64,000 nucleotides of DNA from Brevibacillus laterosporus LMG 15441 (GTDB taxonomy: Bacteria; Bacillota; Bacilli; Brevibacillales; Brevibacillaceae): positions 2,824,501-2,888,500 of the forward strand of contig NZ_CP007806.1 of the NCBI RefSeq assembly GCF_000219535.2. Direction: 5' to 3'. Each line of letters opens with the position of its first letter. The first letter of the stretch is position 1. A program made the translations under genes and the position numbers. A model generated the notes under the pieces. The model made no database searches and was not told the origin of the DNA. It worked only from the letters and a program-made list of their open reading frames with translations. Shown here piece by piece: positions 12,539 through 61,895 of this stretch.

Positions 12539-13270
12539 TTAACGAAAATCATTTGTTGCATGGGTAGAGACAGCATACATTTCATCGATGATTTTCTGTA
12601 AGATCATGCGGACTATGCTTGCATTCCCCTCAATCATTTCAGGGTCAAGCAACTCTTCATGGGTTCCCACCGCTTGATATTGCATATGATTTCCATGAGT
12701 TGCCTGTTTCCATGACCAAGAAGATTCTACTGTCGAGCCCACTTTCTGAGAATCGGATGCTAGTAATTCATGGATATTGGCTTGAACCATCCCCTCATTA
12801 ACAAGCTGATTCCGATATCTAGCGTACGAATAGATTCTATTTGTATAGGAAGGCGTCACAAGATGCTTGTACTGTTCAGGTGTGTCTTCTAAGAGAGTAG
12901 CGATTTCCTGTAAGGCGTCCTCTTTTGAAGAGTCAGAATCCCCACTTCTGATAATGGAATCTAGCATGATAATATCTTTTACTTCGTAGCCTCTTGACTC
13001 CATTGCTTTTGCCACTTCAAATGCCAAATTACCACCTATTGAATAACCTAGGAACACGTACGGTTGATGTCCCTGTACATCAGTGAGGAGTTTGACATAT
13101 TGCTCCATTAATTCCTCGTCATTTGTATATTCCTCAATAAAATCCATACCATACAATACGCACTGGTGTTCAAGTAATTTTGCCATTTCGATGTATGCCA
13201 TGCCATACCCGATTGCTGGCGGGAAGCAGAACACATGTAAGCGTCCATGCTCGTTTAATTTTGTGATTGG
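12539..13270 (-). other. Thioesterase domain (release/cyclisation)
   Basis: The last 240 residues form an alpha/beta-hydrolase TE. The nucleophile elbow is GYSIGG (S4036), the acid is D4063 in MLDS, and H4163 in GTHEEL is the likely base. It should release the 13-mer, most plausibly as a lactone on the Thr9 side chain by analogy with the laterocidine family; hydrolysis to a linear acid cannot be excluded from sequence. Confidence 0.85.
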
Positions 13271-16200
13271 TTTACTCTTATTTTTTGTAAACATAGATCG
13301 TACTATTTCTTCGGCCATCGCGCCTACAGTTGGCATCTCGAACACTACACGTATAGGGATCTCGACCCGAATATCTGTGTAGATTTTCCTGATTAATTCA
13401 AGTACATGTAAAGAATGCCCACCCAATTCAAAGAAGTTGTCATTCTTACCAATTTTAGAAACACCCAATACCTCCTGCCAAATAGTAGCCAATTGTACCT
13501 CCGTTGGTGTCTGTGGAGCGATGTACTCCACTCCTAGATGAATATGACCTTCTGGAGTCGGGAGTGCATTTCGATTCATTTTGCCGTTTGGAGTCAATGG
13601 CATCTGTTCAAGCTGGATAAAAAACGATGGAATCATATAAGTAGGTAAATCTTGTGACAGCGAATTTCTGATTTCACCTACTGTAAGCTGTTGATTTGCC
13701 ACAAAATAAGCACACAACTGCTTCTGTCCCGCTTGCTCCTCTCTTGCAATAACTACCGCTTCCTGAACAGAAGGAATTTGTAGGAGTAGCGCTTCAATTT
13801 CTCCAAGCTCAATGCGATAACCTCGAATTTTTACCTGGTGATCCATTCGTCCCAGATACTCAATGGTTCCATCAGGGAGCCATTTTGCTAAATCTCCTGT
13901 GCGATACATTTTTTCCCCGGTTATAAATGGATTCTCTACGAATTTTTCGGTTGTTAGCTCAGGACGATTCCAGTAGCCTTTTGCCAATCCTTCTCCTGCA
14001 ATGCACAGTTCACCTGCTATCCCGATCGGTTGGAGGTGGTTTTCATCGCTTAAAATATAGAAGGAAGTGTTTACAAGCGGTTTACCAATTGTTATCGGTT
14101 CTCCGTCTATCAGTTCTCCCACCGATGACCACACCGTTGTTTCAGTTGGGCCGTACATATTATACAGGCGTGCCTGGGTGGTCTCGTGCAGGGCTTTGAT
14201 CAGGGAAGCGGGCAGTGCTTCTCCACCGAGCATAATTTCTTGTAATCCCTGTAGGCAGTGAATGTGCTCCGAGGATAACAGCATTTGCATCCGAGAAGGC
14301 GTCATTTGGATCATGTCCACCTGCTGTTTTTCAATCACATCACATAATGCTCTCGGGTCAGTTTGCTGAAGGCTACTTGCTAAAATTACCCTTACACCTT
14401 TACACAGCGGCAGTAGAGTCTCTAACACAAAAATATCAAATGAGATCGTCGTCACGGAAAGAAGTGTTTTTGCTTGGGTAAAGTCGATCTGATCGGTTAT
14501 GCCTTGTAATAGGTTTACGACTGCACGCTGTAAAATCATGACGCCTTTTGGCTTACCTGTTGAGCCTGATGTATAAATAACATAGGCTAAATCAGTAGGT
14601 CCACTAATAGGTTCAAGGTTAGATTGCTCATGCTGATCATCCGCAGACTCTTCATCCATAAGGATCAAGCTTCCTGCAAAAGCTATCCTCTCCTGTAAAT
14701 GACTCTGTGTCACTACCCAATTCGCTTTCGAATCTTCCAGCATGTAGCGAATCCGTTCGTCCGGATAATCTGGGTCAATTGGAACATAGGCGGCTCCAGC
14801 TTTCAAAATCCCCATTAACCCAATCATCATGTCTAAGGAACGGTCCACCATAATTCCAACTAACTGATTGGCTCCCACACCTTCGGATCGCAGGATTCGA
14901 GCCAGTTGATTTGCTTGCTCGTTTAATTCCCGGTAGGTGAGCTGTTCATTTTCGTAAACGACAGCTATCTGCTCAGGGGTACGTTCCACTTGACTCTCAA
15001 ACAATTGATAAATGGTTTTCTCTCTTGGATAATCTCCTGCTGTATCATTAAAGGTGTGCAGTAGCAACTCTTTCTCTTGCGCAGTAGCAATCTCAATGGT
15101 AGACAGCTTTACGGTTGGATCAGCCACTATGCTGTCAATGACCTGTAGGAACTGCTCTGACATTCGCTTGATAGTGTCACGCTTAAACAATGAGGTAGCA
15201 AACTCGAAAGTACACACAATGTTTTTATCATCTTCATTTGCATATAAGCTTAGATCAAATTTAGAGACATTATGCTCTCCTTCAAATGGTCTGAGCTGTA
15301 ACCCTTCGATGGTCTGATTACCTTGCTCCACGTTTTGTAAGGCAAACATTGTATCAAACAGCGGATTGCGACTAAAATCGCGAGCTACCTGTAATTTTTC
15401 TACTAGCTCTTCAAACGGATATTCCTGATTTTCATAGGCTTGTAGTGCATGCTCTTTAACTTCTCTGACATATTCGTAGAATGTTTTTGTTGCCATTGGC
15501 TGAGTACGAATCGCTAGTGTATTAATAAATATACCAATTAGGCTTTCAATATCTGCATGCGGTCTTCCCGCTATTGGAGTTCCTACAATAATATCCTCTT
15601 GTCCACTGCTTTTACCCAACAAGGTGGTATATGCAGCCAATAAGACCATAAACAAGGTGGAACCTGTTTGTGCAGCAATTTGTCGGAGTCCTTCACTTCT
15701 TCGTTGATCGATGACAAATTCAAGGATATCCCCCTGATAGCTTTGCAAAGCAGGTCTTGGATAGTCCGTTGGCAAATTCAGAACCGGAATTTCATTTCCA
15801 TGAATGTTCAGCCAGTATGCTTCTTGTTTTCGGATGCGTTCGCTTTGCACTTCTTCCTGTTGCCATACGGCGTAATCCTTATATTGAATTCGGAGCGGTT
15901 CTAGTTCCTCGCCGGTGTATAACTGAACCAAATCTTGAAGCAAAATACTTAATGAAGCCGCATCAGAAATGATGTGATGCGTGTCAAACATTAAAACATG
16001 TCGATCTGTTTCAAGTTCAATCAAGCCTACCCGTAAAAGTGGAGCTTTTGCAAGATCAAACTCACGCACAAATGCTTGAACGATGCTAGCTATCTCTTCC
16101 TCTTTTGCCAGCGTGTATTCAATCTCAAATGTCACATCACGATAAATCTGTTGGACTGGTTCCCCACTTATCATCGTAAAGCCTGTTCGTAAGGTCTCAT

Positions 16201-19200
16201 GACGATTGATTACCTTCTGGAATGCATCTTCAAGAGTTTTCCGATGAAGCTGTCCCTCTACCACTAGGACTGTTGGCATGTTATAACTGAGCCCTCCACC
16301 CTCAATCTGATTTAAAATATATAATCGTTTTTGAGCAGAGGATACCGGATAAAACTCTCTGTCGAAAATGACAGGAATTGAGAAATGCGCCACGTGATCA
16401 ATCTCAGATACTCGTTTGGCCATCTGTTCGATCGTAGGATATGCAAAGACATCTCGCAAAGGAAGATTCACTCCCATTTCTTTATGCATCTTGGCAACGA
16501 GAGTCGTAGCTCGCAAGGAATGTCCACCACTATCGAAGAAGTTATCTCTCACCCCGATATCAGTAATTCCTAGAACTTCCTGCCAAATACCAGCGATCTG
16601 CACTTCCCACTGTGTCTGTGGCGCTACGTATTCCACTCCTGTTTGCAGGTTTCCTTTTGGTACAGGTAATGCTTTACGATCAATCTTTCCATTTGGTGTT
16701 AAAGGCATTTGCTCCAACTGGACAAAGTAGGAAGGAATCATATAGCCAGGCAGCTTTTGCAGCAATGTGCTTCTTACATCGCTTACAAGTACTGGTTGAT
16801 CCGCTACAATATATGCGCATAAATGCTGTAGCCCAGCATGGTCTTCCTGTGCGATTACCACTGCTTCTTCAATCTCTTTTAAATTCCTTATCTGTTCTTC
16901 TATTTCTCCAAGTTCAATGCGATAGCCCCTCACCTTTACCTGATGATCGATTCGACCTAGATACTCAATGGTTCCATCAGGTAACCACTTCGCTAAATCA
17001 CCCGTTTTATACATTTTACTTCCTGGTAGGAATGGATTTTCGATAAACTTGTCCATCGTTAGTTCGGGACGATTCCAGTATCCTCTTGCAAGTCCCAAAC
17101 CAGCAATGCACAGCTCCCCAGCTACTCCTACTGGTTGAAGATGACCTTCCATACTCAAGATATAAAATTGTGTATTCGTTATTGGTTTGCCAATTGTAAT
17201 AGGCTGGCCCGCTGTCACTGATCCAATTGATGACCATACGGTTGTTTCAGTCGGACCATACATATTAAACAAGCGTGCCGGTGTATGCTCATGTAGCGCA
17301 TTGACTAAGGAAATAGGAAGCGCTTCGCCACCAAGCATAATTTCTTGGACATGCTGCAATTCTTTAAACGGCTCTGTACTATCTACTGAAGATAACAGCA
17401 TCTGCATGCGAGAAGGCGTCATTTGGATCATATCGATTTTTTGCTCAGAAATGACGTTTCGTAAGGCCTGTGAATCCGTCTGTTGAATTTCGCTAGCCAT
17501 TACTACTCGTATCCCTTTACTAAGCGAAAGGAGCGTTTCTAGCACGAAGATATCAAATGAAATGGTAGTAACAGAAAGAAGAGATTTGCCTTCTGCAAAG
17601 TCAATCCGATCCGTTATGCCATGTATCAGGTTGACAACCGCCTGATGAGTAATCATAACGCCCTTAGGCTTCCCCGTCGATCCTGATGTGTAGATGACAT
17701 AGGCTAAATCAAGCGGGCTGCTTCCTGGTACAAGATTAGATGCATCCTCCTGATAAGAAGCCTCTTCCTCTATTACGATACCTTTTCCCTGATATCCATC
17801 GAAGCTAATCTGATCCTGCAAATGACCGTGTACAACTACGAACGTAACCCCCGCATCCTCTAGCATATAGCGAATGCGATCTTCTGGATATCCTGGATCA
17901 ATTGATACGTAAGCTCCACCAGCCTTCAGGATGCCTAACAGTCCAACTAACATGTCAAGAGAACGCTCCACCAAAATACCGACTAGTTGATTCGAGCTTA
18001 TCCCTTCTGCTCGCAGTGTTCTAGCCAGTTGATTTGCTCGTTCATTTAACTCACGGTACGTCAGTTGTTCACCCTCATAAACGACTGCTGCTTGATCTGG
18101 TGTACGTTCGACCTGCATCTCAAATAATTGGTGAATGGTCTTGTCTGCTACATCCTGCATTGCTGTATTGTTAAATGTTTCGAGAATCAACTTCTTCTCA
18201 TCCGTTGTCAGCATCTCGATGGCTGACAGCTTCGCATGCGGTTCACTTACAAGTCCATCTACCAATTGGATAAAGTGCTTCGCCATACGCTCAATCGTTT
18301 CTCGTTTGAATAGTCTTGTCGCATATTCAAAGCTACACAGGACTGTATCTGTATCCTCCATCGCATGTAAGGTCAAATCAAACTTGGATATGGTTTGTTC
18401 ACTTGCATATGATGAAATGCGTAAGCCCTCTAGCTCCTGCTCTTTCTTTTCTAGATTTTGCAGGACGAGCATTGTATCAAACAATGGATTACGACTCATA
18501 TCCCGATTTACATCGAGCTTGTCTACCAGCTCTTCGAATAAATAGTCTTGATTCTCATATGCCTTCAAGGAAGCTTCTTTGACTTCCTGTAGATATTCGT
18601 AGAATGTTTTTTCACCAGCTGGATAGTTACGTATCGCAAGCGTGTTTATAAATATACCAATCATATTTTCTAAATCTGGATGAGGTCTTCCTGCTATCGG
18701 GGTTCCAACAATAATATCCTCTTGTCCACTATATTTACTCAGTAGAGTCGTATATACAGCCAATAACACCATATACAGCGTAGAACCGGTTTGGGCTGCG
18801 ATTTGCCTTAATCCATCACTGCTTTTTTGGTCAAGCACAAATTCAAACGTACTTCCCTCAAAGCTTTTCATAGCTGGACGGGCATAATCGACTGGCAAGT
18901 TGAGTACGGGAATCTCTCCCTGGAAAACTTCAAGCCAATAGGCTTCTTGTCGCTTGATTGCCTCGCGGTGAACGCCTTCTCGTTGCCAGACTGCATAATC
19001 CCTATATTGAATACGAAGCGAAGATAACTCTCCCCCCGTATACAGGCTGATAAATTCTTGCATCAAAATCCCTGTGGAAACACCATCTGAAATAATATGG
19101 TGCATGTCTAGCATTAGAACATGGCTATCTTTTTCTATCTTAATAAGCCCAACACGGAGTAATGGAGCTTGCTCAAGGTTGAACGGACGGACAAAGCCTT

Positions 19201-22200
19201 GGATAATGGCTTCGAGCTCTTCCCTACTGGCTTCAGTATATTCGATAGAAAAATCTACATTTGGGTGTACTCGTTGCATCGTTTCTCCGTTTACCAGCTC
19301 AAAACTAGTTCGTAAGATTTCATGACGCGAAATCAGCTTCTGGAAGACTATTTCTAAACGTTCTTGATCGAGCTCTCCATCTATCCTTACCACGTTCGGC
19401 ATATTATAACTAATTTCTCCACCAATTAATTGACTTAAAATATACAATCGCTTCTGGGCTGAAGAAACCGGATAGAATTCTCTCTCTTCAATAATGGGAA
19501 TGGAAGTATAGGCAATTTTTTCTCTTCCTATTAATACTTCTGCCATTTGTTCAATAGTCGGATTTTGGAAAACATCCCGTAGCGGTAGGTTTTGATTTAA
19601 TTCTTTATAAATTCTGGAAACCAAATGAGTAGCTCGCAGGGAATGACCACCAATATCAAAGAAATGATCCTTCACCCCGATCATGGAAAGACCAAGAACC
19701 TCTTGCCAAATCTGCACAAGCTTCGATTCCATCCATGTACGTGGCGGCACGTATTCTGCTCCTGTTTGGATAGTGCCATCCTCTGGGGCAGGTAAAGACT
19801 TTCGATCGAGCTTTCCATTTGGTGTATGCGTGATTTTGTCTACCTGTATGAAATAAGACGGTACCATGTAACTAGGAAGCTGATGGGCCAGTCTGCTTTT
19901 TAGCTCACTAATCATCAATTGCTTTTCCGATACAATATATGCGCATAAGTGCTGTAGTCCAGCATGGTCTTCCCGAGCGATTACCACTGCTTCTTGGACC
20001 TCTTCCATGCTTACGATCCGTGCTTCTATTTCTCCTAGCTCAATCCGATATCCTCGGATTTTAACCTGATCATCTGTTCTTCCCGCATATTCCATATTTC
20101 CATCTGGCAACCATCGTGCAAGGTCCCCGGTTCGATACATTCTTTCCCCAGGCCTAAAGGGATTTTCTATAAATTTTTCCGCGGTTAGCTCGGGGCGATT
20201 TAAATACCCTCTGGCAACCCCATCCCCTGCAATGTACATTTCTCCAATAGAGCCGATTGGCACTGGACGCAGAGCTTTATCTAATACATAAATCCTTACA
20301 TTGTCCGCTGGTACACCAATTGGTACAGAGTCCTGAGAAATATGATTCGGATCAAATGTATAGAGCATGCAGCCTACTACGGTTTCGGTAGGTCCATATT
20401 CATTCATAATTTGGACATTCCCACCAAAATTACGATGGATTTTGCTAGCCAGTTGCGTGTGTAGGGTTTCGCCGCCGACAATAAATCTTTTCATGTTACT
20501 GTTCGTGCCATCGTAGTCTTCTATTAATTTAAGATGGGTAGGTGTTAGCTTGATGATCCCAACCTTATTGTCTGCAAGGATGTCCAAAATGACCTGTACC
20601 TTGTCTTCTCCTCTATAAATATAGATCGTATTTCCAGAAATCAGAGGAGTATAAATGGACGTGACAGTCAAATCAAACGAAATAGACGAATAAAGCGGGA
20701 AATGAACGGTCTCATTTTGCACATACACCTTTTTAGCCCACCAAATATAATTGACAAGCCCCTGATGAGTGATCATAGCTCCCTTCGGCTTTCCAGTCGA
20801 GCCTGAAGTATAAATGATATATGCTAGATCATTCATGTTGTTTACGTGTTCAAGATTAGTGGTATTTCCCTGATAGATCTCTTGATTGTCTAGGTAAAGA
20901 ATCTTTTTGTTATAAGTAAGTTTTTCAGAGAATTTTTGCTGCGTGAGCAAAATAGTTGTTTGACTATCCTCTAGCAAGTACTGAATTCGATCTTCTGGGT
21001 AGTCTGGATCAATCGGTACATAAGCCCCCCCAGCCTTTAAGATACCGAGCAATCCAACCATCATATCCAATGAATGCTCCATCAAAATACCGACTAGCTG
21101 ATCTGAGCCTATTCCTTCTGCTCGCAGTGTTCGTGCTACTTGATTGGCTCGCTCATTTAACTCACGGTATGTCAGATGTTCACCTTCATAAACAACAGCT
21201 ACCTGATCTGGTGTGCGTTCTACCTGCATCTCGAATAATTGGTGAATGGTTTGTTCCTCTACACCCTCTACTGTCGTATTGTTAAACGTTTCGAGAATCA
21301 ACGTCTTCTCATCTGTTGTCATCATCTCGTTGGTCGACAGCTTCGCATGCGGATCACTTACAAGTCCATCTATCAATTGGATAAAGTGCTTTGCCATACG
21401 CTCGATGGTTTCTCGTTTGAATAGTGTTGTCGCATATTCAAAACTACATAGAAGCGTATCCGCATCCTCCATCGCATGTAGAGTTAAATCGAACTTGGAA
21501 ATCGTATGCTCACTTACATATGGTGTGATGCGTAACTGCTCTAAGTCCTGCTCCTGATTTTCTAAATTTTGCAGGACAAGCATCGTATCAAACAATGGGT
21601 TACGACTCATATCCCGGTTTACATCTAGCTTATCTACCAGCTCTTCGAATAAATAATCTTGATTCTCATATGCCTTCAAGGAAGCTTCTTTCACTTCCTG
21701 TAGGTATTCATAGAATGTTTTTTCACCCACAGGATAGTTGCGGATTGCGAGAGTGTTTACAAACATACCAATCATGCTTTCCAAATCAGCATGGGGTCTT
21801 CCCGCAATCGGTGTTCCAACAATAATATCCTCTTGTCCACTATATTTACTCAGCAGGGTTGTATAGACCGCCAATAGCACCATGTACAACGTAGAACCGG
21901 TTTGTGCTGCAAGCTGCTTTAGGTCCTCACTTGTGTGTTTGCCGATTCTAAATTCCAACAGACCTCCGTCAAAGCTTCTAATAGCAGGCCGAGTCAAATC
22001 AGTAGGCAATTGAAGGACAGGCAGTTCTTTTGAAAATACTTGTAGCCAATAATTTTCTTGTTGCTGATACCACTCACTTTTCATCTGCTGCTGTTGCCAA
22101 GAAGCGTAGTCCTTGTACTGGATTCGTTGTATAGGCAATACCTCTCCCTGATACAAGCTGGCAAACTCTTGAATAAGAACATTCATAGAGGTTCCATCAG

Positions 22201-25147
22201 AGATGATATGGTGCATGTCAAACAATAAGACATGGCGATCATAGGCTAACTGGATGAGTCCTACACGCAACAATGGAGCGCTTTGCAAATCAAACATTCT
22301 TGTAAAATCACGAATGATTCCTTCCGCCTCTTCTTCATTGGTAACCTGTACATATTCCAAGGCGAAAGGAACCTCTTTATGTACGCGTTGAATTGGTTCA
22401 CCGCCTACTAGCTCAAAGCTGGTTCGTAAAATTTCATGACGCGCAATGAGTTGCTGAAACGTTTTTTCTATACGTTCTCGATCGATCTCTCCATCCAACA
22501 ACATAGCATTCGGCATATTATAGCTGATTTCCCCACCTGCTAGCTGACTTAGGATATAGAGTCGTTTCTGAGCGGATGAGACGGGGTAATAAGGTTGTTC
22601 CTCAATATTGGGTATAACAGAATAAGCTGTTTGCTCGATATTCTCAATGAGCTGAGCCAGTTGTTCGATCGTCGGATGTGAAAACACATCTCTTAGCTGG
22701 ATATTCTTTTGTAGCTCCTTCTGAATCGTAGACACCAGAGCTGTTGCTCGTAAGGAATGTCCGCCTCTTTCAAAAAAGTTGTCTTTTATTCCAATCTTAG
22801 ATAGCCCTAAAATCCCCTTCCAAATTTCCGCTAATTTTTCTTCCAGCAAGGTGCCGGGGGCTACATATTCTTCAATTGGCATTGTCTCCTCAACAGATGG
22901 GAGCATTTTTTTATCAATCTTTCCGTTCGGAGTAAGCGGCATTTGGTCAAGGGGTATGCAATAATCAGGAACCATATATTCAGGTAATTTATCAGACAGA
23001 TTTTTGAGTAATTCTCCTGGTTGAATAGACTCTTTTCCCACGTAATAGGCGGCTAAATATTTATTTCCTTCCTTTATTCCATCCACCACAATGGCTTCGT
23101 TGACCTCTGGGAATGCTAAAAGAGCATTTTCAATTTCTCCTAGCTCAATACGGAATCCTCTGATTTTTACCTGCTTATCTATCCGATCTAAAAAATCAAT
23201 ATTTCCATCTGGCAGCATCTTGACTAAATCGCCTGTACGATACATGGGTGTACCTGGCACAAATGGATTATCAACAAATTTTTCTACATTTAACTCTTCT
23301 CTATTGAGATATCCAGTCGATAAGCCCTCTCCTGCGATGCACAATTCACCCGGAACCCCAATCGGTCTAAGATGATTGAATTGATCCACTACGTACACCA
23401 ATGTATTGGCTAGAGGTTTCCCAATCGGAACTGTTGCGACATCTTCATCAAAAGAAGTATTAATGGGATAGAAGGTGGTAAATACCGTACTCTCGGTAGG
23501 ACCATAGACATGAATGAGTCGTTCTGGCCCCAAATAATGGAATGCCTTGCGGATATGAGTAACAGATGCACGCTCTCCCCCAAATAAAACCTTGCGGACA
23601 TTTGTAAAGCATGTCAGCTGATTGTCAACAAGCGTATTGAAGAAGGCAGTAGGTATAAAGAAGATCGTTACATTCTGTTGCTCGATTACGCTACTAAGCT
23701 TAGTAAGGTCAAGCATATCTGTTTTTTTCATGAGGATCAGCCTTGCCCCATTTAACAAAGCGCCGTAGATGTCAAAAATAGAACCGTCAAATACATAATT
23801 AGAAAGCTGTAATAAGGTATCGTCTTCTTTTATTTCGATGTAATTGGTTTTGAGTACCACTCTTGTAGCACTGAAGTGTCTGATTTGCGTGCCTTTAGGT
23901 GTTCCAGTCGATCCAGAAGTATATATGACATAAGCCACATCAGTTGCTTCTGCTACTGGCTCTACGTTAGAACGGTCTTCACTGTAAGCCTCTGAATCAT
24001 CTAGGAGTACGCACGTTCCCGCGAAATCTGCTCGATGCCGTATGTGACTTTGTGTAACAAATACTTTTGCTCCTGAATCCTCCAGCATATAACGAATCCG
24101 ATCATTCGGATATTCTGGATCAATCGGTACATAGGCTCCCCCCGCTTTTAAAATCGCGAAAATTCCGATGATCATTTCTAAGGAGCGTTCAACCATGAGC
24201 CCGACTAATTGCCCTTTAGTGACTCCTTGGTTTCGTAGCGTTCTTGCTAGTTGATTAGCCTTTTCATTTAACTCTTGATAAGTTAGTTGCTCATCATGTA
24301 ATACAACCGCTACTTGATTTGGTGTACGCTCTACCTGTTCCTCAAACAACTGTTGAATGGTTTTCTCTCTGGGATAGGCGGTAGCCGTGTTATTAAACGT
24401 ACGCAGAAGCTGTTCCTGCTCTTTTTCTGATAACAGTTCAACCTGTTCTAGTGAAAGGTCTAGATCAAATAAGACAATGGATAAAATGTGAGATAAGTGC
24501 CTGCTGACTTGGTTAATCAGCTCTTGATCATAACGATTTTCGTTATAAATGGTGTTTAATTGAAGAGAGCCATTTTCCAGACCAAATTGAAAATGGATGT
24601 CATAAACAGCATGTTCCTCGAAATCTAGTGTATGGAGCTCCTTTAACGACACGATCGTATTAATGATCGGGACTCGATTCGAATCGTAATGTACATTCAG
24701 AGTATCAATAAAATTCCAAAAAGGAAGACTCTGATGTTTCATTGCTTCACTAATGGAGGATTTGATTTGGTTTAATAAGGATTTAAAAGTATTCTTGCTA
24801 TGTACTTCATTTTTTAAAATGATGAGCTGATTTGAAAGTGGTTGTTGCGCATCAGGTGAAGTACGAAATCCTGGGACACCCACAATGATGGTTTCTTGGC
24901 TCGTATATTTGGACAACAAGCTTTCTAAACCAGCTAATAAAATCATAAAGATAGCGATATGTGACCCGCCTGCAATGGAACTGATTCTTTCGAAAATCTG
25001 AGGCGGCAATGTACTGGAAATGCTTTGGTAGCTGTCGGTATTTCTATGAATAGAGGAAGTTCTGTTATACGGGAGAATTACGATTTGATCATCGGCATCA
25101 AACTTACTGCTCCAAAAAGCTTTTTCTTTTTCAAATAGAGCTTTCAA
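12539..25147 (-). CDS. Nonribosomal peptide synthetase, four modules (10-13) plus thioesterase
   Basis: This 4202-residue cytoplasmic synthetase adds the last four residues of a lipopeptide and releases it. The order is half-C, A, T, C, A, T, C, A, T, C, A, T, TE, with no epimerase. Pocket codes give Ile, Asn, Gly, Gly. Carrier serines are S798, S1836, S2877 and S3912, all in GGHSL. The TE has GYSIGG with S4036, D4063 and probably H4163. The start is TTG at 25145-25147 with GGAG eight bases upstream; an in-frame TAA directly precedes it, so the missing front half of the first condensation domain is not a start-choice error. It lies 175 bases downstream of the nine-module synthetase gene on the same strand, and the domain logic makes it the second protein of the line. 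Family call is certain; the Ile and Asn predictions are strong. Confidence 0.95.
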   Translation of the reverse strand: MKALFEKEKAFWSSKFDADDQIVILPYNRTSSIHRNTDSYQSISSTLPPQIFERISSIAGGSHIAIFMILLAGLESLLSKYTSQETIIVGVPGFRTSPDAQQPLSNQLIILKNEVHSKNTFKSLLNQIKSSISEAMKHQSLPFWNFIDTLNVHYDSNRVPIINTIVSLKELHTLDFEEHAVYDIHFQFGLENGSLQLNTIYNENRYDQELINQVSRHLSHILSIVLFDLDLSLEQVELLSEKEQEQLLRTFNNTATAYPREKTIQQLFEEQVERTPNQVAVVLHDEQLTYQELNEKANQLARTLRNQGVTKGQLVGLMVERSLEMIIGIFAILKAGGAYVPIDPEYPNDRIRYMLEDSGAKVFVTQSHIRHRADFAGTCVLLDDSEAYSEDRSNVEPVAEATDVAYVIYTSGSTGTPKGTQIRHFSATRVVLKTNYIEIKEDDTLLQLSNYVFDGSIFDIYGALLNGARLILMKKTDMLDLTKLSSVIEQQNVTIFFIPTAFFNTLVDNQLTCFTNVRKVLFGGERASVTHIRKAFHYLGPERLIHVYGPTESTVFTTFYPINTSFDEDVATVPIGKPLANTLVYVVDQFNHLRPIGVPGELCIAGEGLSTGYLNREELNVEKFVDNPFVPGTPMYRTGDLVKMLPDGNIDFLDRIDKQVKIRGFRIELGEIENALLAFPEVNEAIVVDGIKEGNKYLAAYYVGKESIQPGELLKNLSDKLPEYMVPDYCIPLDQMPLTPNGKIDKKMLPSVEETMPIEEYVAPGTLLEEKLAEIWKGILGLSKIGIKDNFFERGGHSLRATALVSTIQKELQKNIQLRDVFSHPTIEQLAQLIENIEQTAYSVIPNIEEQPYYPVSSAQKRLYILSQLAGGEISYNMPNAMLLDGEIDRERIEKTFQQLIARHEILRTSFELVGGEPIQRVHKEVPFALEYVQVTNEEEAEGIIRDFTRMFDLQSAPLLRVGLIQLAYDRHVLLFDMHHIISDGTSMNVLIQEFASLYQGEVLPIQRIQYKDYASWQQQQMKSEWYQQQENYWLQVFSKELPVLQLPTDLTRPAIRSFDGGLLEFRIGKHTSEDLKQLAAQTGSTLYMVLLAVYTTLLSKYSGQEDIIVGTPIAGRPHADLESMIGMFVNTLAIRNYPVGEKTFYEYLQEVKEASLKAYENQDYLFEELVDKLDVNRDMSRNPLFDTMLVLQNLENQEQDLEQLRITPYVSEHTISKFDLTLHAMEDADTLLCSFEYATTLFKRETIERMAKHFIQLIDGLVSDPHAKLSTNEMMTTDEKTLILETFNNTTVEGVEEQTIHQLFEMQVERTPDQVAVVYEGEHLTYRELNERANQVARTLRAEGIGSDQLVGILMEHSLDMMVGLLGILKAGGAYVPIDPDYPEDRIQYLLEDSQTTILLTQQKFSEKLTYNKKILYLDNQEIYQGNTTNLEHVNNMNDLAYIIYTSGSTGKPKGAMITHQGLVNYIWWAKKVYVQNETVHFPLYSSISFDLTVTSIYTPLISGNTIYIYRGEDKVQVILDILADNKVGIIKLTPTHLKLIEDYDGTNSNMKRFIVGGETLHTQLASKIHRNFGGNVQIMNEYGPTETVVGCMLYTFDPNHISQDSVPIGVPADNVRIYVLDKALRPVPIGSIGEMYIAGDGVARGYLNRPELTAEKFIENPFRPGERMYRTGDLARWLPDGNMEYAGRTDDQVKIRGYRIELGEIEARIVSMEEVQEAVVIAREDHAGLQHLCAYIVSEKQLMISELKSRLAHQLPSYMVPSYFIQVDKITHTPNGKLDRKSLPAPEDGTIQTGAEYVPPRTWMESKLVQIWQEVLGLSMIGVKDHFFDIGGHSLRATHLVSRIYKELNQNLPLRDVFQNPTIEQMAEVLIGREKIAYTSIPIIEEREFYPVSSAQKRLYILSQLIGGEISYNMPNVVRIDGELDQERLEIVFQKLISRHEILRTSFELVNGETMQRVHPNVDFSIEYTEASREELEAIIQGFVRPFNLEQAPLLRVGLIKIEKDSHVLMLDMHHIISDGVSTGILMQEFISLYTGGELSSLRIQYRDYAVWQREGVHREAIKRQEAYWLEVFQGEIPVLNLPVDYARPAMKSFEGSTFEFVLDQKSSDGLRQIAAQTGSTLYMVLLAVYTTLLSKYSGQEDIIVGTPIAGRPHPDLENMIGIFINTLAIRNYPAGEKTFYEYLQEVKEASLKAYENQDYLFEELVDKLDVNRDMSRNPLFDTMLVLQNLEKKEQELEGLRISSYASEQTISKFDLTLHAMEDTDTVLCSFEYATRLFKRETIERMAKHFIQLVDGLVSEPHAKLSAIEMLTTDEKKLILETFNNTAMQDVADKTIHQLFEMQVERTPDQAAVVYEGEQLTYRELNERANQLARTLRAEGISSNQLVGILVERSLDMLVGLLGILKAGGAYVSIDPGYPEDRIRYMLEDAGVTFVVVHGHLQDQISFDGYQGKGIVIEEEASYQEDASNLVPGSSPLDLAYVIYTSGSTGKPKGVMITHQAVVNLIHGITDRIDFAEGKSLLSVTTISFDIFVLETLLSLSKGIRVVMASEIQQTDSQALRNVISEQKIDMIQMTPSRMQMLLSSVDSTEPFKELQHVQEIMLGGEALPISLVNALHEHTPARLFNMYGPTETTVWSSIGSVTAGQPITIGKPITNTQFYILSMEGHLQPVGVAGELCIAGLGLARGYWNRPELTMDKFIENPFLPGSKMYKTGDLAKWLPDGTIEYLGRIDHQVKVRGYRIELGEIEEQIRNLKEIEEAVVIAQEDHAGLQHLCAYIVADQPVLVSDVRSTLLQKLPGYMIPSYFVQLEQMPLTPNGKIDRKALPVPKGNLQTGVEYVAPQTQWEVQIAGIWQEVLGITDIGVRDNFFDSGGHSLRATTLVAKMHKEMGVNLPLRDVFAYPTIEQMAKRVSEIDHVAHFSIPVIFDREFYPVSSAQKRLYILNQIEGGGLSYNMPTVLVVEGQLHRKTLEDAFQKVINRHETLRTGFTMISGEPVQQIYRDVTFEIEYTLAKEEEIASIVQAFVREFDLAKAPLLRVGLIELETDRHVLMFDTHHIISDAASLSILLQDLVQLYTGEELEPLRIQYKDYAVWQQEEVQSERIRKQEAYWLNIHGNEIPVLNLPTDYPRPALQSYQGDILEFVIDQRRSEGLRQIAAQTGSTLFMVLLAAYTTLLGKSSGQEDIIVGTPIAGRPHADIESLIGIFINTLAIRTQPMATKTFYEYVREVKEHALQAYENQEYPFEELVEKLQVARDFSRNPLFDTMFALQNVEQGNQTIEGLQLRPFEGEHNVSKFDLSLYANEDDKNIVCTFEFATSLFKRDTIKRMSEQFLQVIDSIVADPTVKLSTIEIATAQEKELLLHTFNDTAGDYPREKTIYQLFESQVERTPEQIAVVYENEQLTYRELNEQANQLARILRSEGVGANQLVGIMVDRSLDMMIGLMGILKAGAAYVPIDPDYPDERIRYMLEDSKANWVVTQSHLQERIAFAGSLILMDEESADDQHEQSNLEPISGPTDLAYVIYTSGSTGKPKGVMILQRAVVNLLQGITDQIDFTQAKTLLSVTTISFDIFVLETLLPLCKGVRVILASSLQQTDPRALCDVIEKQQVDMIQMTPSRMQMLLSSEHIHCLQGLQEIMLGGEALPASLIKALHETTQARLYNMYGPTETTVWSSVGELIDGEPITIGKPLVNTSFYILSDENHLQPIGIAGELCIAGEGLAKGYWNRPELTTEKFVENPFITGEKMYRTGDLAKWLPDGTIEYLGRMDHQVKIRGYRIELGEIEALLLQIPSVQEAVVIAREEQAGQKQLCAYFVANQQLTVGEIRNSLSQDLPTYMIPSFFIQLEQMPLTPNGKMNRNALPTPEGHIHLGVEYIAPQTPTEVQLATIWQEVLGVSKIGKNDNFFELGGHSLHVLELIRKIYTDIRVEIPIRVVFEMPTVGAMAEEIVRSMFTKNKSKPITKLNEHGRLHVFCFPPAIGYGMAYIEMAKLLEHQCVLYGMDFIEEYTNDEELMEQYVKLLTDVQGHQPYVFLGYSIGGNLAFEVAKAMESRGYEVKDIIMLDSIIRSGDSDSSKEDALQEIATLLEDTPEQYKHLVTPSYTNRIYSYARYRNQLVNEGMVQANIHELLASDSQKVGSTVESSWSWKQATHGNHMQYQAVGTHEELLDPEMIEGNASIVRMILQKIIDEMYAVSTHATNDFR
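13271..16375 (-). other. NRPS module 13: C-A(Gly)-T
   Basis: The A-domain pocket reads D-I-L-Q-M-G-M-V-W, a glycine-type code. The carrier serine is S3912 (GGHSL). The condensation domain has THHIISDA: the glycine of HHxxxDG is Ala (A3063), while both histidines and the aspartate remain. The A10 motif reads NGKMNRN instead of NGKxDR but keeps the lysine. Confidence 0.85.
16376..19495 (-). other. NRPS module 12: C-A(Gly)-T
   Basis: LCL-type condensation domain (HHIISDG), then an A domain with pocket D-I-L-Q-M-G-M-V-W (Gly), identical to modules 6 and 13, and a carrier with S2877 in GGHSL. The condensation half is nearly the same as that of module 11, which points to recent duplication or gene conversion. 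Confidence 0.88.
19496..22610 (-). other. NRPS module 11: C-A(Asn)-T
   Basis: LCL condensation domain (HHIISDG). The pocket reads D-L-T-K-I-G-E-V-G, the classical asparagine code known from tyrocidine synthetase. The carrier serine is S1836 in GGHSL. Confidence 0.9.
22611..25147 (-). other. NRPS module 10: half-C, A(Ile)-T
   Basis: Residues 1 to about 225 match only the C-terminal lobe of a condensation domain, with no HHxxxDG motif. The A domain pocket reads D-G-F-F-L-G-V-V-F, one position from the isoleucine code of bacitracin synthetase. The carrier serine is S798 (GGHSL). The bond to Ile must be made by the condensation domain at the end of the preceding protein. Confidence 0.85.
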
Positions 25148-50600: not shown

Positions 50601-53600
50601 AAGGGAGGCAACAATCTTCTCTCCACCAACTACAATGTTTTTTACTGACAGTAAATCTTGAGGATTTATTGTTTCGACAATTGCCCATAAAAAGCTAGGT
50701 GAGCTCTGGAAATGTGTCATTTGGTGTTGAGTAATTGCTTTTTTGATCGCTTCCGGGTCCTTACTTTCTTCGTCACGCAATACATATACGGTTGAACCAG
50801 ATGCCAGCGGTCCAAATAAATGGGTAAGGAATGGATCGAATACAAATGGAGTTACCATAAGCACGCGATCTTCTAGTGAAAACTGATAAGCGTTTGCCTT
50901 CCAAAGTATTGTGTTGACAATGCTGGCATGTTCTACCATAACACCCTTAGGCTTGCCTGTTGTTCCAGACGTATAGATAACATAAGCCAAATCTTGTGGT
51001 CCATGTATCGCTCTAAGATTAGAAGCTAGTGTCTGGTAGGATGTTTCCTCATCTAACAATAGGATTTTACCTGTAAATGATACTCTCTCCTGTAGATGCC
51101 CCTGTGTCAGGAGTAAAGCAGTTTTCGCATCCTCAAGCATGTAGCTGATGCGTTCCTCAGGATACTCAGGATCAATTGGAACATAGGCCCCGCCAGCTTT
51201 TAAGATGCCTAACACACCGACAATCATTTCTAGCGAGCGTTCAGCCATAATACCAACCAATTGATCGGCTTTTATCCCCTGCTTACGCAATGTTCTTGCT
51301 AATTGATTAGCTCGTGCATTTAGTTCACGATAGGTAAGCTTCTCATGCTCGCAAACAATCGCTATCTGGTCTGGTGTACGTTTTGCCTGACGTTCAAACA
51401 ATTGATGAAGCATGATGTCCTGCGGATAAATCTCTTTTGTATCATTGAACACTGTTAAAATTTGTTCTTTTTCTGCCGCAGTAACCAGTTCTAATTCGTT
51501 CACACGCAATTGTGGGTTAGACGTAATTTGCTCTACGATATGGACAAAATGGCCCTGGATTTGTTCAATGCTAGTTTGATCATATACCAAGGTATTATAG
51601 CCGTAGCAAATCCCCAGCTCTTCCCCAGGCATAATGATCAGGTTAAGGTCATAGTTCGTCTGTTCCACTGTCTCGATATTTCCAATAGCAAATTTGGATT
51701 GTCCAGTGCTTCCCAATTGCTCAATCTGCTGTTCCATTGGATAATTCTCAAACACCATAATGTGATTGATTAAATCCTGTTTTTGTTCTGTGAGCGCCTG
51801 TATATCATAGAGTGGATAGGTATCATACACATTCGATGCCAATGCTTGCTCCTGAATTCTTCTCATTACCTGTGCAGCCGTTTCCTCTGCTTCACAACAA
51901 ATACGGACCGGGATTGTATTAATAAACAATCCAAGAATGTTTTCAACGCCAGGAATGTCAGCCGGTCTTCCAGAAACCACACTGCCAAAGACGGCATCGT
52001 GGTGATTATTGTATTTCTGGAGCATAATTCCCCATGCAGTCTGCATAAACGTATTGATTGTTACTTGATTCTGCTTAGCTGCTTGATCCAATCTCTTCGT
52101 AAGTTCTTTACTAAATGTGAAGTGTAATTTGGTTGCCGCATAAGCTTTGTCTTCCTTACCCTGCTTTCTATCATGTATCAGTAGGGTTTGTTGTTCATAG
52201 CCAGCTAAATACTCGCTCCAGTAACTAGCTGCACTCTCCTGATCTTGGCGTCCCAGCCATTCAATATAATGGCTATACGGTGTTAGGGCAGTATACTCAG
52301 GTTGTCTATTTTCCCGAATTGCATTGTATCCACCAAATACTTCCTTGACCATGATAGACACGCACCAGCCGTCCATCACGATATGGTGGAAACTCCAAAT
52401 AAGGCGGTACTTTTCTTCCTCCATACGAAGAACGGATACACGAATCAAGGAATCCTTGGCTAAATCAAATCCTTTTGCCTTGTCTTCTCTTTTATAATTG
52501 GCTATATAGAAATTACGGGTTGCCGCATCCATTTCGCGTAGGTCCTCATAATAAAGTTCACCATTTTTATGACGATACACCACTTGTATAGGCTGATCTT
52601 TAAAGCCATTGTAAAAATTTGTCCGCAGTGCCTCATGCCGTTGTACCCATGCATCTAAGCTTTTAGCAAACGCGGTGAGATCAAATCTTCCTGTCAAATC
52701 AAAGGATGTTTGCTCAAAGTATGCACCTGAATGAGGATTCATCAAGCTGTGGAAATACATACCCTTCTGCATCGGTGTTAATTCATATACGTTCTCGATT
52801 TCACCTGTTTCTTTCATTCGTTCTACTAACTGATCAAGCTCTTCAATGCTTAGACCAGCTAATAAAACATCACTTGGAGTAAGCTCTGTGCTGTTTCTCG
52901 CCACGCAGTGTGTAATCACATTCTGTAGCGAAGACTGCAATAAGTTAGCTACTTCTTCCATTGTTTCTTTCTTGTATTCTTTCTTACTGTATCTGATGGT
53001 CATCTCCAAGCGACCATTAGAAATCATGCCGTTTATATTTAAAGCGGTTTTCATTTCTAGCTGTTCACTTACAACATCTCCAACAGAATACGGTGATAAT
53101 TGCATCTCATTATTTTGATAGTCCTGATCAAACTGCCCCAGGTAATTAAAGCTGATCTCAGGCTCTAGCTTGAATATTGGATTACCTTGCAGTGCTGATA
53201 AATACCTTAAGATGCCATAGCCAATTCCTTTGTTAGGAATCTGACGCAACCCTTCCTTTACTCCCTTAATTTGTTGAGACAAATTCTTATCGGCTTGTAC
53301 CTCTACAACTACTGGATACTGACTTGTAAACCATCCTACTGTACGAGTGATATCAATATCCCGAACGATGTCCTCTCTACCATGCCCTTCAAGATTTACG
53401 AAGATTTGCTCCATACCTGTCCATGCCTGGATTGTCATACCAAGTGCAGTGAGCAGCAGATCATTTACTTCTGTTCCATATGCGTGATTTGCTTGCTTTA
53501 GCAATTGTTCCGTTTCCTGTTCGGTCCATTGAACGGTAATCATTTCACTATCGCGAACCAGCTTCTTGGCTTGTACATGATCCTTAGGAAGTAATTGCAT

Positions 53601-56600
53601 CTCCATTTGCTCTAGTCGCTGCCAGTACTTTTGTTCGTTCTCCATAGCCGCACTATTCGCATAAAGTGATAACTGTTCAGCCCATGTTTGGAACGAATCT
53701 GTTTTTTGTGGTAATTGAATGGCTATCCCATTCATTGCTTGTTCATAGCCTGTAGCAAGGTCTTCGAATAAAATACGCCATGAAATTCCGTCTACTACCA
53801 AGTGATGAATAACCATTAATAAATGGTCTCCATCTGAGCAATGGAACAAACCAAGTTTCAGAAGCGGACCTTCATTTAGGTTGATACTACTTTGAATTTC
53901 GGTTGCTTTCTTTTCAATCGCTTTGGAGCAATCCGTGTTTCCTTTGAGATCAATCACTTCTAGGGTATATAAATCCCCTTCATCCACTCCACGGTTTCGT
54001 GCTTCGAATCCACTCTCGGTCTCTTTAAATACCATTCGTAAGGCATCGTGATGAGAGACCAGCTTTTGCATAACCTCGCGAAGCGCAGACTCTGTAAATC
54101 CTTGCTTACGATATAACATGTAGGCTTGATTGAAATGATGCGGTTCAACTGGCATCTGCTCAAAGAACCACCGCTGTATCGGGGTAAGTTCTACTTGACC
54201 TACTACTTCCCCTTGATCCGCCATTTTGCTAATCAGTTGGAGACGTGGGCTTAACATCTCTACAGTTGGATATTTAAACAAATCCTTCATTTCCAGCTTA
54301 TATCCGGATTGAAGTAGGCGGGAAGAAACCTGGATTGCTTTGATAGAGTCTCCACCCAGATCAAAGAAATTATCCAAGATACCGACTTGCTGACTGCCTA
54401 AGATTGTTTTCCAAATAGATGCCAACAGTTGTTCGACTTCATTGCGTGGGGCTATATACTCAACCCCAGTGTCTACGTTTCCTTCTGGTGCAGGTAGCGC
54501 TTTACGATCAATTTTTCCATTTGAGGTAAGTGGCATTTGCTCTAATTGCACAAAGTAGCTTGGTATCATGTAATTAGGTAATTCATGAGATAATTCGCCT
54601 CTAAGCTTGGCCATACTCAGCAGGCTTCCAGCAACAAAATAGGCACATAAATGCTTTTGTCCTGCCTCGTCATCTCTTGCGATGACAATAGCTTCTTGAA
54701 CCGTATCTACCTTCAGTAACTGCGCTTCAACCTCACCCAGCTCAATACGGTACCCACGGATTTTTACCTGATGATCAATTCGACCCAAATATTCAATGGT
54801 ACCATCTGACATCCATCTAGCCAGATCGCCCGTTTTGTACATTCGTTCCCCTGCTCTAAAACGGCTGTTCACAAATTTTTCTTCAGTAAGCTCTGGGCGA
54901 TTCAGATAACCACGTGCTAATCCAACGCCAGCGATGCATAGCTCGCCTGCAACACCGATAGGTAGCAAATGACCTTCTTCATCAACAATGTAGATGCGAT
55001 GGTTCTTAAGAGGTCGACCGATAGGCACAACGTTTTCTGACATTGACTCGCGATCATAAGACCATACGGAGGAGCAAATCGTATCCTCAGTCGGACCGTA
55101 GGCATTGAAATACGACACGTGGTCTTTCCATTTCTGTACTAATTCAACAGAGGAAGCGGACCCAGCAGTGATCAGTGTTTTTAAACTAGGCAGATTGCTT
55201 GGCTCCAGATATATTGCATAAGTAGGAGGCAATGCCGCGACAGTTATTTGATTGGAAGTAATATAGTCCTCGAACAAACGATAATTCATAATGACGGAGG
55301 TAGAAGGTATATATAGGGTTCCGCCACAAATAAAGGCTTTGAAAAATTCTGCGCACGCCGCATCAAATGACACGCTGGCAAACTGCACGATTCGATCATC
55401 CGCGCTAAGTCCCAAATTGTATTCAAAATACGTTTTTAAATTGCACAGACCATGATGCTCCACCATAACACCCTTTGGTTTACCCGTAGTTCCAGATGTG
55501 TATATGACATAAGCCAAATCATTTGGTCCAGTAATCGATTCAACATTGGTATCGTCTGCGTTATACACTTTCTCATCATCTAGCATTAGGAGTGTTCCAT
55601 TAAAGGTGATTTGCTCCTGTAAATGGCTTTGGGTGAGCAACAGCTTAGCCCCGGAATCCTCCAGCATATAACGAATCCGCTCTTCTGGATATTCTGGATC
55701 AATAGGAACGTAGGCGCCTCCAGCTTTTAATACCCCAAAGATACCTATTATCATTTCCAATGAACGTTCTACCATGATACCGACTAGTTCGTTTTTCTGA
55801 ATTCCCTCTGCTCGCAGAGTTCGAGCCAGTTGATTAGCTTTCGCATTCAATTCACGATAAGTTAATGGTTTTTCTTCATAAACAACTGCCACTTTATCAG
55901 GGTTTTTCGCTACGTGCTCTTCAAATAACTGGTAAACGGTCTGCGCACTAGGATAGTCAGCCTGCGTATCATTGAACACATTGAGAATCTGCTCCTTCTC
56001 AACAGGTGTTACAGCTTCCAATTCATTTATACGGGCATCTGGATTTTCAATAATTTGCTCCAGCATTTGAACAAAGTGCATCACAATTCGCTTAATGCCA
56101 GCTTCATCAAATACATGTGCATTATAATCCAGCATAAGCTTCATCTCTTCGCCCGGCACGACAGCTATGTTTAAATCATAGTTTGTTTGTTCTGTTACTT
56201 TTACATCTGCAATTGTGAAGTTGGCTTGTTTTCCAATCCCCAACTGCTCCATCTCATGATCGATCGGATAGTTTTCGAATATCATAATATGGTTAATTAA
56301 ATCTTGTTTTTGTTCCGTCAGCCCTTGAATTTTATAGAGCGGATGCGTATCGTAAGCATGCGATTGCAGAGCTTGTCCTTGCACCTTTCGCAATACTTCA
56401 CTTAGCGTATCTGTTCCCTCGCAACGAACCCGAACCGGAATGGTGTTAATAAATAAGCCAATGACACCTTCAATTCCTGCTATATCAGCTGTTCTTCCTG
56501 AAACGACACTGCCAAAAACAACATCGTGATTACCATTGTATTTCTGTAATAAAAGCCCCCATGCAGTCTGCATGAACGTATTAATTGTTACCTGATGCTG

Positions 56601-59600
56601 TTTAGCTACCTGATCCATTCGTTCTACAAGCGTCTTATCAAGAACGTTGATCACTTTCTTAGCAGAATAACCTTCTTTATTTGGATGTTTTTCTTTGGGC
56701 AAAATCGTTTGACCCTCGTATTCTGCCAAATACTCACTCCAGTATCTCGTTTTCTCTTCTTCATTTTGATGCTCTAACCAATCGATGTACTGGCTATATG
56801 GCGTTACAGCTTCCCATTTAGGTTGTCTATTTTGTAGGATAGCAAAATAGCCTTCAAACACCTCTTTGGTCATAATTGGCAGGCACCAGCCGTCCATCAC
56901 GATATGATGGAAACTCCAAACAAAATGGTACGTATCCTCTGTCAATCGCAAAATGGATACCCGCATCAAAGAATCTTCTGCTAAATCAAACCCTCTGCTT
57001 TTATCCTTTTCGGCAAAGCTACTCAGATGTTCCTCACGTTCAGCTTCGCTCATTTCTCGCAAATCTTCATAATATAGTTCACTATTTTTCTGACGGAATA
57101 CAACCTGAATAGGGTCATCTTTTAAACCATTATAAAAATTGGTTCTTAACGTCGCATGCCTTTGGGTAAAGACATCTAGACTCTTCCCAAAAGTGATGAC
57201 ATCAAAGCTGCCCTTTATAGTAAACGTTAATTGCTCAAAATACGCCCCTGAGTATGAATCCATCAGGTTGTGGAAGAACATCCCCTTCTGCATTGGTGTT
57301 AAATAATAAACATTCTCAATTTCACCAATATCTGCGGTCTGTTCTACTAATCGTTCAAGCTCTTCAACTGTCAGGTCTTTTAATAACAGGTCACTTGGTG
57401 TTAGCTCTACCTGTTCTTTTGTCACGCAATGGGCAATTATCTGTTGTAGGCTGGCTTGTAAGTGTTTTGCTAGCTGCTGCATCGTTTCGGTACGATATTC
57501 TTTACTGCTGTAACTAATCGTAAGCTTCAACGATCCATTGGTGACCATCGTATTCAAGTCAAGAGTATAGTTTCTCTTGGCCCGCGGACTCACAAATGCT
57601 CCACTTGAATAATGAGAAAGCTGAAGATCATTATGCTGTAAGTCCTGATCAAATTGCCCCAAGTAGTTAAAACTGATTTCAGGCTCCAAATTGCTTATGT
57701 TCTGCTTCTCGGATTTATCCAAATATCGTAAAATGCCGTATCCTAAACCCTTCTGCGGAATTTGACGCAACATTTCTTTGACCTGCTTAATACGACGAGA
57801 GATTTCCTGATCCCCATCCATTTGGAGCATGACAGGGTACAAGCTGGTAAACCAGCCTACCGTCCGAGTAACATCGATATCTTGATGAATCAACTCGCGA
57901 CCATGGCCCTCTACATTCACCAAAAATTGATGATTGCCCGTCCAATCGTGTAATGCCATTCCTAACGCAGTAAGCAATAAGTCGTTAACTTCCGTGTTGT
58001 AGGCACGATTTGATTGTTTCAATAATTGTTCTGTATCTTGCTCAGTCCATTGAATTTCTACAATTTCACTATCCGCAATGACCGATTGTTCTTGGATAAA
58101 GTCCTTTGGCAAATCTATAGTTGTAACTTGTTCGATTTGCTTCCAGTAAGCTTTTTCACGCTGCAATTCATCACTTTTAGCATAATCAGAGAGTTGCTCT
58201 GCCCACTTTTGGAAGGAATCTGTCTTTTGCGGGAAGCTGATGGTTTCCCCTCGAAGTGCTTGTTCATAACCGCTCGCGATATCTTCGAATAAAATTCGCC
58301 AAGAAACTCCATCAACTGCCAAATGGTGAATAACAATCAGCAGGTGATCTCCTTCTTGACACTGGAATAGTCCCATTTTTAGTAATGGGCCTTCAGTCAG
58401 AGAAATACTGCCTTGAATTTCATTTACTTTCGTTTCGATGAGTCGGGCGCAGTCTATTTCACTTCTCAAATCTATTACTTCAAGACTATACAGCTCGCCC
58501 TCCTCTACCCCTCGATGCCACGTTTCATAACCATTTTCTGTTTCGCGAACAATCATTCGTAACGCGTCATGATGAATGGCGATCTTCTCCATGACCATCC
58601 GAAGCAATGTTTCATTAAAACCTTTTTCCATGAAAAGCATGAAAGCTTGGTTATAATGGTGTTGTTCAACTAGTTTTTGCTCAAAGAACCAGTGCTGAAT
58701 TGGAGTTAATAAGGTAGCCCCTACTACCTCACTCTGATCAGCAATCTTCGTAACTAACTGAATATGTTGGCTTAATTGGGCAATGATTGGATAGGTGAAC
58801 AAATCCTTCATTTCCAGTTTATAGCCTGCCTGAAGCATCCTAGAAGAGATCTGAATAGACTTGATAGAGTCTCCTCCCAGATCAAAGAAATTATCCAATA
58901 CACTAATTTTCTTAGCTCCTAGAACAGCCTGCCAAATGGATACCAATGTCTGCTCTATAGCAGTGCGAGGTGCTACATACTCTACACCCGTTTGGATACT
59001 CTCCTCTGGTGCTGGTAGCATTTTACGATCAATCTTGCCATTTGGAGACAGTGGCATTTTATCCATTTGAACAAAATAGGATGGAACCATATATGTAGGT
59101 AATTCTCGGGAAAGGTCAGCTCTTAGCTCACCTACAGTCAGTTGCTTGTTCGCTACATAATAGGCGCACATTTGCTTTTGACCGCTTGCATCTTCTCTAA
59201 CAATTACCACCGCTTCTTGTATCGCTTCTATTTTCAATAGCTGCAACTCGACTTCGCCAAGCTCAATACGGTAGCCACGGATTTTTACTTGGTGATCAAT
59301 CCGACCCAAATATTCAATATTTCCATCTGGTAACCATCTTGCTAAGTCTCCCGTTCTATACATTCGTTCTCCTGGGGCAAACGGATTTTTCACAAATTTC
59401 TCTTCCGTAAGCTCCGGTCGATTCAGGTACCCTCTAGCTAAACCGACCCCAGCAATGCATAGCTCACCTGCTATCCCAATCGGTTGAAGGTTAACAGAAT
59501 CAGCTTGGACGATGTAAAGTTGGGTATTATATATAGGTTTACCGATTGGAATTGCAGCTAGTTCCTCATCAGTATCACAATCAAAATACGTAACATCTAC

Positions 59601-61895: not shown

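Follow-up and report, generated by a model that had tools for sequence, protein, structure and literature searches.

Genes and domain order at the locus

The window, a stretch of 64,000 nucleotides from Brevibacillus laterosporus LMG 15441, carries two adjacent nonribosomal peptide synthetase (NRPS) open reading frames on the minus strand, designated latC (25323–61919; 12,198 aa) and latD (12539–25147; 4,202 aa). An ATG lies inside the latC frame at 61895, and because the related frame in another genome of the genus (G003) starts at the corresponding position, this is perhaps the true start of latC. A motif scan locates 13 A10 motifs, nine in LatC and four in LatD, in agreement with the two-protein, 13-module line proposed in an earlier, sequence-only reading of this DNA. 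LatC comprises modules 1–9 and the full condensation (C) domain of module 10, and LatD comprises a half C domain, modules 10–13 and a thioesterase, with module 10 split between the two proteins.

Across LatC and LatD there are 18 HHxxxD[GA] motifs, five of which belong to epimerases. The latter are marked by FNYLGQFD at LatC residues 1417, 2924, 4437, 5955 and 9548, with TPSD[VIL]L further along at residues 1507, 3014, 4527, 6045 and 9638, which places them after modules 1, 2, 3, 4 and 7 only, exactly where the sequence-only reading had put them. Their approximate regions, all on the minus strand, are 57366–58718 for epimerase 1 (HHLAVDG with FNYLGQFD), 52845–54197 for epimerase 2, 48306–49658 for epimerase 3, 43752–45104 for epimerase 4 and 32970–34322 for epimerase 7. 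Epimerase 7 also scores above the TIGR01720 cut-off in a search over 9,333 of the 12,198 LatC residues; TIGR01720 was absent among the best 25 matches for the other two pieces searched. The C domain that follows each epimerase carries HHI[VL]MDGWC in five of five cases, and this motif is absent from the other eight C domains; a C domain of this type fits the acceptance of a D residue. The N-terminal C domain of LatC, before A1 (approximately 60600–61919, minus strand; HHIVCDG at LatC residue 146), would by its position be an acylating starter. In the C domain of module 13, HHIISDA replaces HHxxxDG (LatD residue 3057; window 15959–15979), as it does in the copy found in a further genome of the genus (G004), so that activity of this domain is an assumption. 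The terminal thioesterase region of LatD (12539–13348, minus strand; GYSIGG at LatD residue 4034), likewise named in the earlier reading, matches PF00975 with an E value of 4.5e-24.

The latD frame opens at a TTG immediately after ATG-TAA (window ~25147–25156). The G004 match at the LatD start likewise contains an in-frame TAA, and the G003 line reads V-M-Q-L there without a stop; this arrangement may be relevant to the coupling of latC and latD. A megablast search of latD against plasmids gave no match (11,462 bases searched). Recent duplication of modules was considered and rejected: same-substrate A segments within the window (seven pairs) are 68.7–76.3% identical in protein and are therefore not recent copies.

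Two ABC genes and one MFS gene flank the synthetases. A latE-like MFS transporter gene lies at 10971–12422 on the plus strand (PF07690, E 2.5e-62), and a latB-like ABC transporter gene occupies 62424–64000 on the minus strand and runs on to 64214 past the window, where a latA-like ABC gene comes next (64229–66022). The resulting set, ABC-ABC-NRPS-NRPS-MFS, matches rlcA–E as described in PMC7818431. Elsewhere in the window are a gene for a collagen-repeat protein with a BclA C-terminal domain (656–1570; PF01391, PF18573), whose start appears by eye to have a second copy in bases 1–55, and a formate-dehydrogenase-like molybdopterin oxidoreductase gene with 2Fe-2S and 4Fe-4S domains (7188–10142), which adjoins a DUF1641 gene (6694–7188). 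The genome sequence as a whole (contig C1 of G000) contains 112 condensation-domain matches, with groups at about 0.94–0.99, 2.49–2.58, 2.62–2.65, 2.70–2.74 and 2.96–3.02 Mb.

Pocket codes and the predicted product

Pocket positions were numbered from the GrsA stretch, checked against PDB 1AMU, and all 13 A domains could be aligned. In LatC, on the minus strand, the codes are DVWHFSLVDK for A1 (59028–60242), DAAAIAAICK for A2 (54507–55721), DPTQVGEVVK for A3 (49968–51182) and A8 (30093–31307), DVGEIGSIDK for A4 (45414–46628), A5 (40863–42077) and A7 (34632–35846), DILQMGMVWK for A6 (37758–38972) and DFWNIGMVHK for A9 (26970–28184). LatD, on the same strand, adds DGFFLGVVFK, of Ile/Val type, for A10 (22913–24127), DLTKIGEVGK for A11 (19805–21019) and again DILQMGMVWK for A12 (16679–17893) and A13 (13574–14788). 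Positions 1, 4–7 and 9–13 carry codes consistent with Ser1, Orn4, Orn5, Gly6, Orn7, Thr9, Ile10, Asn11, Gly12 and Gly13; the Orn-Orn-Gly-Orn core, Thr9 and Ile10 were read again from the aligned codes as they had been read before. The A2 code is of an aromatic type and does not distinguish a Tyr from a Phe reading. The mutual identity of the A3 and A8 codes suggests the same residue at both positions, for which the reading as Trp rests on position in the line. The A13 pocket has a Trp at 331 in GrsA numbering, which was taken to equal position 290/291 of PMC10111413.

The order of residues agrees with that published for laterocidine (PMC9581180 and PMC10111413), and the cluster is very probably the laterocidine cluster latA–E of a B. 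laterosporus-group genome. The genes latA–E were named, and laterocidine was lost in a latC mutant, in PMC6095874. Against that cluster (MIBiG BGC0002432, as cited in PMC10111413), compared by its published description, we found no difference in architecture, codes or gene set; the 13 modules, the epimerases 1–4 and 7, the codes, the A13 Trp, the thioesterase and the transporters are shared. The sequence-only reading had proposed a laterocidine- or relacidine-like 13-mer and was uncertain of residues 1 and 11. Both Ser1 and Asn11 are present in laterocidine, and because they agree with it while relacidine and brevicidine do not fit, the product would be an already known compound active against Gram-negative bacteria, as far as codes can tell.

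The three clusters share their epimerase positions, and residues 11–13 distinguish laterocidine from relacidine (PMC10111413). The relacidine cluster, a five-gene set rlcA–E (PMC7818431), has the module count, the module architecture, residues 1–10 and the exocyclic part in common with the window. Relacidine has Gly11-Ser12-Gly/Ala13, however, and its A13 pocket has a Tyr where that of laterocidine has a Trp, at a position linked to Ala acceptance (PMC10111413), whereas the window has the Asn code at A11, the Gly code at A12 and the Trp at A13; the chance that this is a relacidine line is practically negligible. A brevicidine line was rejected by the codes. The brevicidine cluster (MIBiG BGC0001536, as cited in PMC10111413) shares the Orn-Orn-Gly-Orn core, the D pattern and Trp8-Thr9-Ile10, but has 12 modules, Asn1 and Gly11-Ser12 in place of the 13 modules, Ser1 and Asn11-Gly12-Gly13 found here. 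There is a slim chance of a laterocidine congener with Phe2, other relaxed residues or a different acyl chain: brevicidineB is brevicidine with Phe2 (PMC8219939), the A2 code is of the aromatic type and the choice of acyl chain lies outside the codes, but every other position equals laterocidine. The A2 code DAAAIAAICK was also read by eye in G004 and in the brevicidine-type line of G003, a recurrence that favours neither Tyr nor Phe. For a laterocidine-type ion with Tyr2 and a C9H17O acyl group, the calculated [M+2H]2+ is 802.93.

On this assignment, LatC would load the acyl chain onto Ser1 and add residues 2–9, the epimerases would turn residues 1, 2, 3, 4 and 7 to the D form, with the distinct C-domain type after each, and residue 10 would be joined by the C domain at the end of LatC. 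LatD would activate residues 10–13, and its thioesterase would close the lactone from Gly13 to Thr9. Contact between the LatC tail and the half C domain of LatD may keep the two proteins together. The residues at positions 2, 3 and 8, the acyl chain, the closure of the lactone and the activity of the product are here predicted by analogy with published work.

Relatives of the line are found within the genus. A scan of genome contigs with the thioesterase region, possibly not covering the window's own-genome records, returned one relative, B. laterosporus MSSRFCCT15 (L001, 91%). Among five genomes of the genus, a close thioesterase is present in three (100% in G000, the window's own genome; 91% in G004; 67% in G003), the best match in G002 being only 37% and G001 having none. 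In G004, translations read by eye show a homologous line of 13 modules whose codes equal those of the window, and the LatD homologue there is 94% identical (4111 alignment columns, with the first 91 residues outside the comparison). G003 holds a 12-module line with codes, again by eye, for Asn, aromatic, DPTQ-type, Orn, Orn, Gly, Orn, DPTQ-type, Thr, Ile, Gly and Ser, which would be read as a brevicidine line; position 299 of the A3 pocket is Ala in G003 as against Val in the window.

Comparison of the Asn-type A1 of G003 (L020:11239–12790) with the window separates core from flank. Over the whole A region, G003 A1 is 79% identical to A11 of the window (Asn; 19805–21019) and 53% identical to A1 (Ser). 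The core is 89% identical to that of A11 (275/309) and 38% identical to that of A1 (124/323), whereas the C-terminal flank is 88% identical to that of A1 (88/100) and 62% identical to that of A11 (59/95). This split looks like the signature of a natural A-core replacement between modules, in either direction, and would be a natural case, with sharp borders, of the A-core swap attempted by engineers. With the window, the laterocidine group also gains a further genome, and the codes together with the epimerase positions suffice to separate laterocidine, relacidine and brevicidine.

The LatC/LatD junction and half C domains in other synthetases

The C domain at the LatC C-terminus (25326–26672, minus strand, start approximate; HHIISDG at LatC residue 11884) is complete, matching positions 3–453 of PF00668. 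The protein then ends in the tail ELVENTASNQDLVESITFDF, the last residues of which are ITFDF-COOH; the FDF (25326–25334, minus strand), identified from the translation and a comparison set of tails, is a candidate docking motif. In the first 239 residues of LatD (24431–25147, minus strand), the sole Pfam match is to the C-terminal half of PF00668 (188–447 of 456, E 1.8e-25). This half C domain, a putative docking and platform domain, is without the half that carries HHxxxDG and, within the matched part, shares 25% identity with the C domain that ends LatC. Four half domains of the genome share two gaps relative to the LatC terminal C domain, one of 4 residues at IGMF and one of 13–16 before the FDL motif. 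A frameshift at the junction was rejected, since in a three-frame translation the C domain that closes LatC is complete and LatD is not preceded by an HHxxxDG half; it is also disfavoured by the similarity of the LatC end and the LatD start in G003 and, in G004, by the LatC end as read and the LatD start as a search match. A structural model of the half domain has a pLDDT of 72 and a pTM of 0.73, with residues 16–36 and three other segments below a pLDDT of 50. By title, the 50 best PDB matches of the model are nearly all NRPS proteins or condensation-type domains; the fold and these matches are partly expected, because the model alignment consisted of C domains, namely 12 of the window's own 13.

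A profile built from an alignment of 12 half domains scored half domains of this kind in the family Brevibacillaceae at 251–318 bits, two remoter domains at 218 and 195 bits and the other listed matches at no more than 180 bits; the half domain of L029, at 156.8 bits, lies in the range of ordinary C domains. The gap in scores arises partly by construction, because most of the highest scores belong to domains included in the alignment or to their orthologues. Fifteen groups of half domains were opened in Brevibacillaceae, outside of which stand L063, L067 and further matches taken as orthologues by frame length. In 11 of the 15, Pfam places a C domain at the end of the NRPS or PKS-NRPS subunit that comes before the half domain, and all 11 of these partners have an FxF tail: FDF in LatC and L065, FHF in L023 (FNF in its orthologue L066) and L112, FNF in L025 and L061, FTF in L064, FAF in L033, FSF in L058, FEF in L059 and FVF in L060. 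Two further genes stand between the C-ending subunit and the half-domain subunit in L025. By eye, HHxxxDG is altered in three of the 11 partners (HSLIADQ in L025, HHIVADN in L060 and NHTIMDW in L061). The FDF-tailed partner in L065 (2151–5945) is a PKS-type subunit with KR, carrier and C domains by Pfam, and the pairing is therefore not confined to pure NRPS subunits.

The remaining four groups have no C-ending neighbour. Upstream of the half domain are an acetyltransferase and then a carrier-ended protein in L062 (1942–3000), a protein that is serine-hydrolase-like by eye and then an epimerase-type end in L023 (2321–6271), a transporter-like gene in L029 (13395–19928) and non-NRPS genes in L111 (3–887). 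The partners of these four half-C proteins, if any, must lie elsewhere. An acyltransferase-like gene in place of a C-ending subunit is also found upstream in L109, outside the family.

A search of 398 genomes of the class at E ≤ 1e-52 matched 30, of which 16 lie outside Brevibacillaceae. One locus was read in each of these 16, covering 16 of the 27 matches; the other 11 comprise five in G120 and one each in G077, G208, G277, G397, G163 and G230. In 15 of the 16 loci the upstream gene ends, by eye, in a C domain with HHxxxDG intact, and the half-domain match starts 18–175 bases past it. The tail is an exact FxF in 8 of these 15 and has a final F in 14; the seven that depart from FxF are LIF (L100), FEL (L103), DFF (L104), VDF (L105) and LNF (L107, L108 and L110). 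L107, L108 and L110 look like one orthologous group, and L104 and L105 like another. Half C domains of this shape are seen in unrelated lines and in five further families of the class. At the Phe frequency of LatC and LatD (3.7%), FxF would be expected by chance in about 0.14% of tails; because the loci are partly orthologous, we quote no joint probability. FxF was absent from control NRPS C-termini of other kinds, although these numbered only four.

A candidate docking pair and its alternatives

Because the pairing is conserved, the half domains diverge in a shared way, the model has a C-domain-like fold and an effect has been reported for McyB (PMC11546977), we propose that the LatC/LatD junction represents a separate type of NRPS docking pair, for modules that are split between C and A. 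A subunit ending in a C domain would carry an acidic-aromatic FxF-COOH tail, or a hydrophobic variant of it, and this tail would be bound by the diverged C-terminal half C domain, devoid of the catalytic motif, with which the downstream subunit starts and which would also serve as a platform for the first A domain. Such pairs would occur across Brevibacillaceae and five other families, and perhaps in iturin-type synthetases. We lean, with some reserve, towards this reading. The half-domain protein of L107 (5,365 aa) would match in size the B subunits of iturin-family synthetases; bacillomycin D is one of this family.

The proposed pair has counterparts among known systems. In the SLiM-betaHD pairs of the docking review PMC9113145, a short C-terminal linear motif upstream likewise meets a folded N-terminal acceptor downstream, but there a small beta-hairpin domain accepts a motif located behind carrier, oxidase, Cy or E domains, whereas in LatC/LatD the candidate motif is located behind a C domain and its proposed acceptor is a half C domain. 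No N-terminal beta-hairpin docking domain was found on LatD, the first 239 residues of which correspond in Pfam to the PF00668 half only. COM docking (PMC9113145; PMC11546977, section 4.4) also acts at subunit termini in NRPSs; in its canonical form, however, a donor located after an epimerase is accepted by a full C domain, whereas LatC ends in a full C domain, LatD begins with a half C domain and the break falls between C and A of one module. A truncated C domain described in PMC7253712 and called probably inactive resembles the LatD half C domain in shape, but opens a loading module at the beginning of its line, and the one in PMC8739492 closes its line, which sets it apart from the LatD half C domain. 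Searches of mostly open full-text literature, together with passages of the review PMC9113145, gave no description of the FxF-tail/half-C pair.

The junction may already be described as COM docking, because PMC11546977 reports that COM domains also occur between domains within modules and that terminal deletions in the bacillomycin D synthetase change its products. We consider this identification unlikely, as the N-terminal C lobe is missing from the half C domain, the tail is FxF without a helix-like COM donor or TPSD ahead of it, and the section on COM in PMC11546977 does not name a half C domain. Decay is a highly improbable explanation: the half domain does lack the HHxxxDG half and two further segments, as a functionless remnant of a split gene might, but it is 87% identical between the window and the G003 line, and the same shape is maintained in unrelated lines and five other families of the class.

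The half C domain might instead be a structural platform for A10 only, with the FxF tail of LatC unrelated to it. The N-terminal part of the NCBIfam model TIGR03443 (aminoadipate reductase) also matches all four half domains tested, the McyB A domain is reported to become more specific when co-expressed with a C-terminal C subdomain (PMC11546977), and five half domains (L062, L023 2321–6271, L029, L111 and L109) are without a C-ending neighbour. A platform role alone is rather unlikely, however, since it leaves unexplained the FxF in 11 of 11 C-ending partners in Brevibacillaceae and the final F in 14 of 15 outside the family.

If the docking-pair proposal is true, the LatC/LatD junction would provide a transplantable break of natural origin within one module, between C and A, and the match of tail and half C domain would offer a way of predicting which NRPS subunits follow one another.
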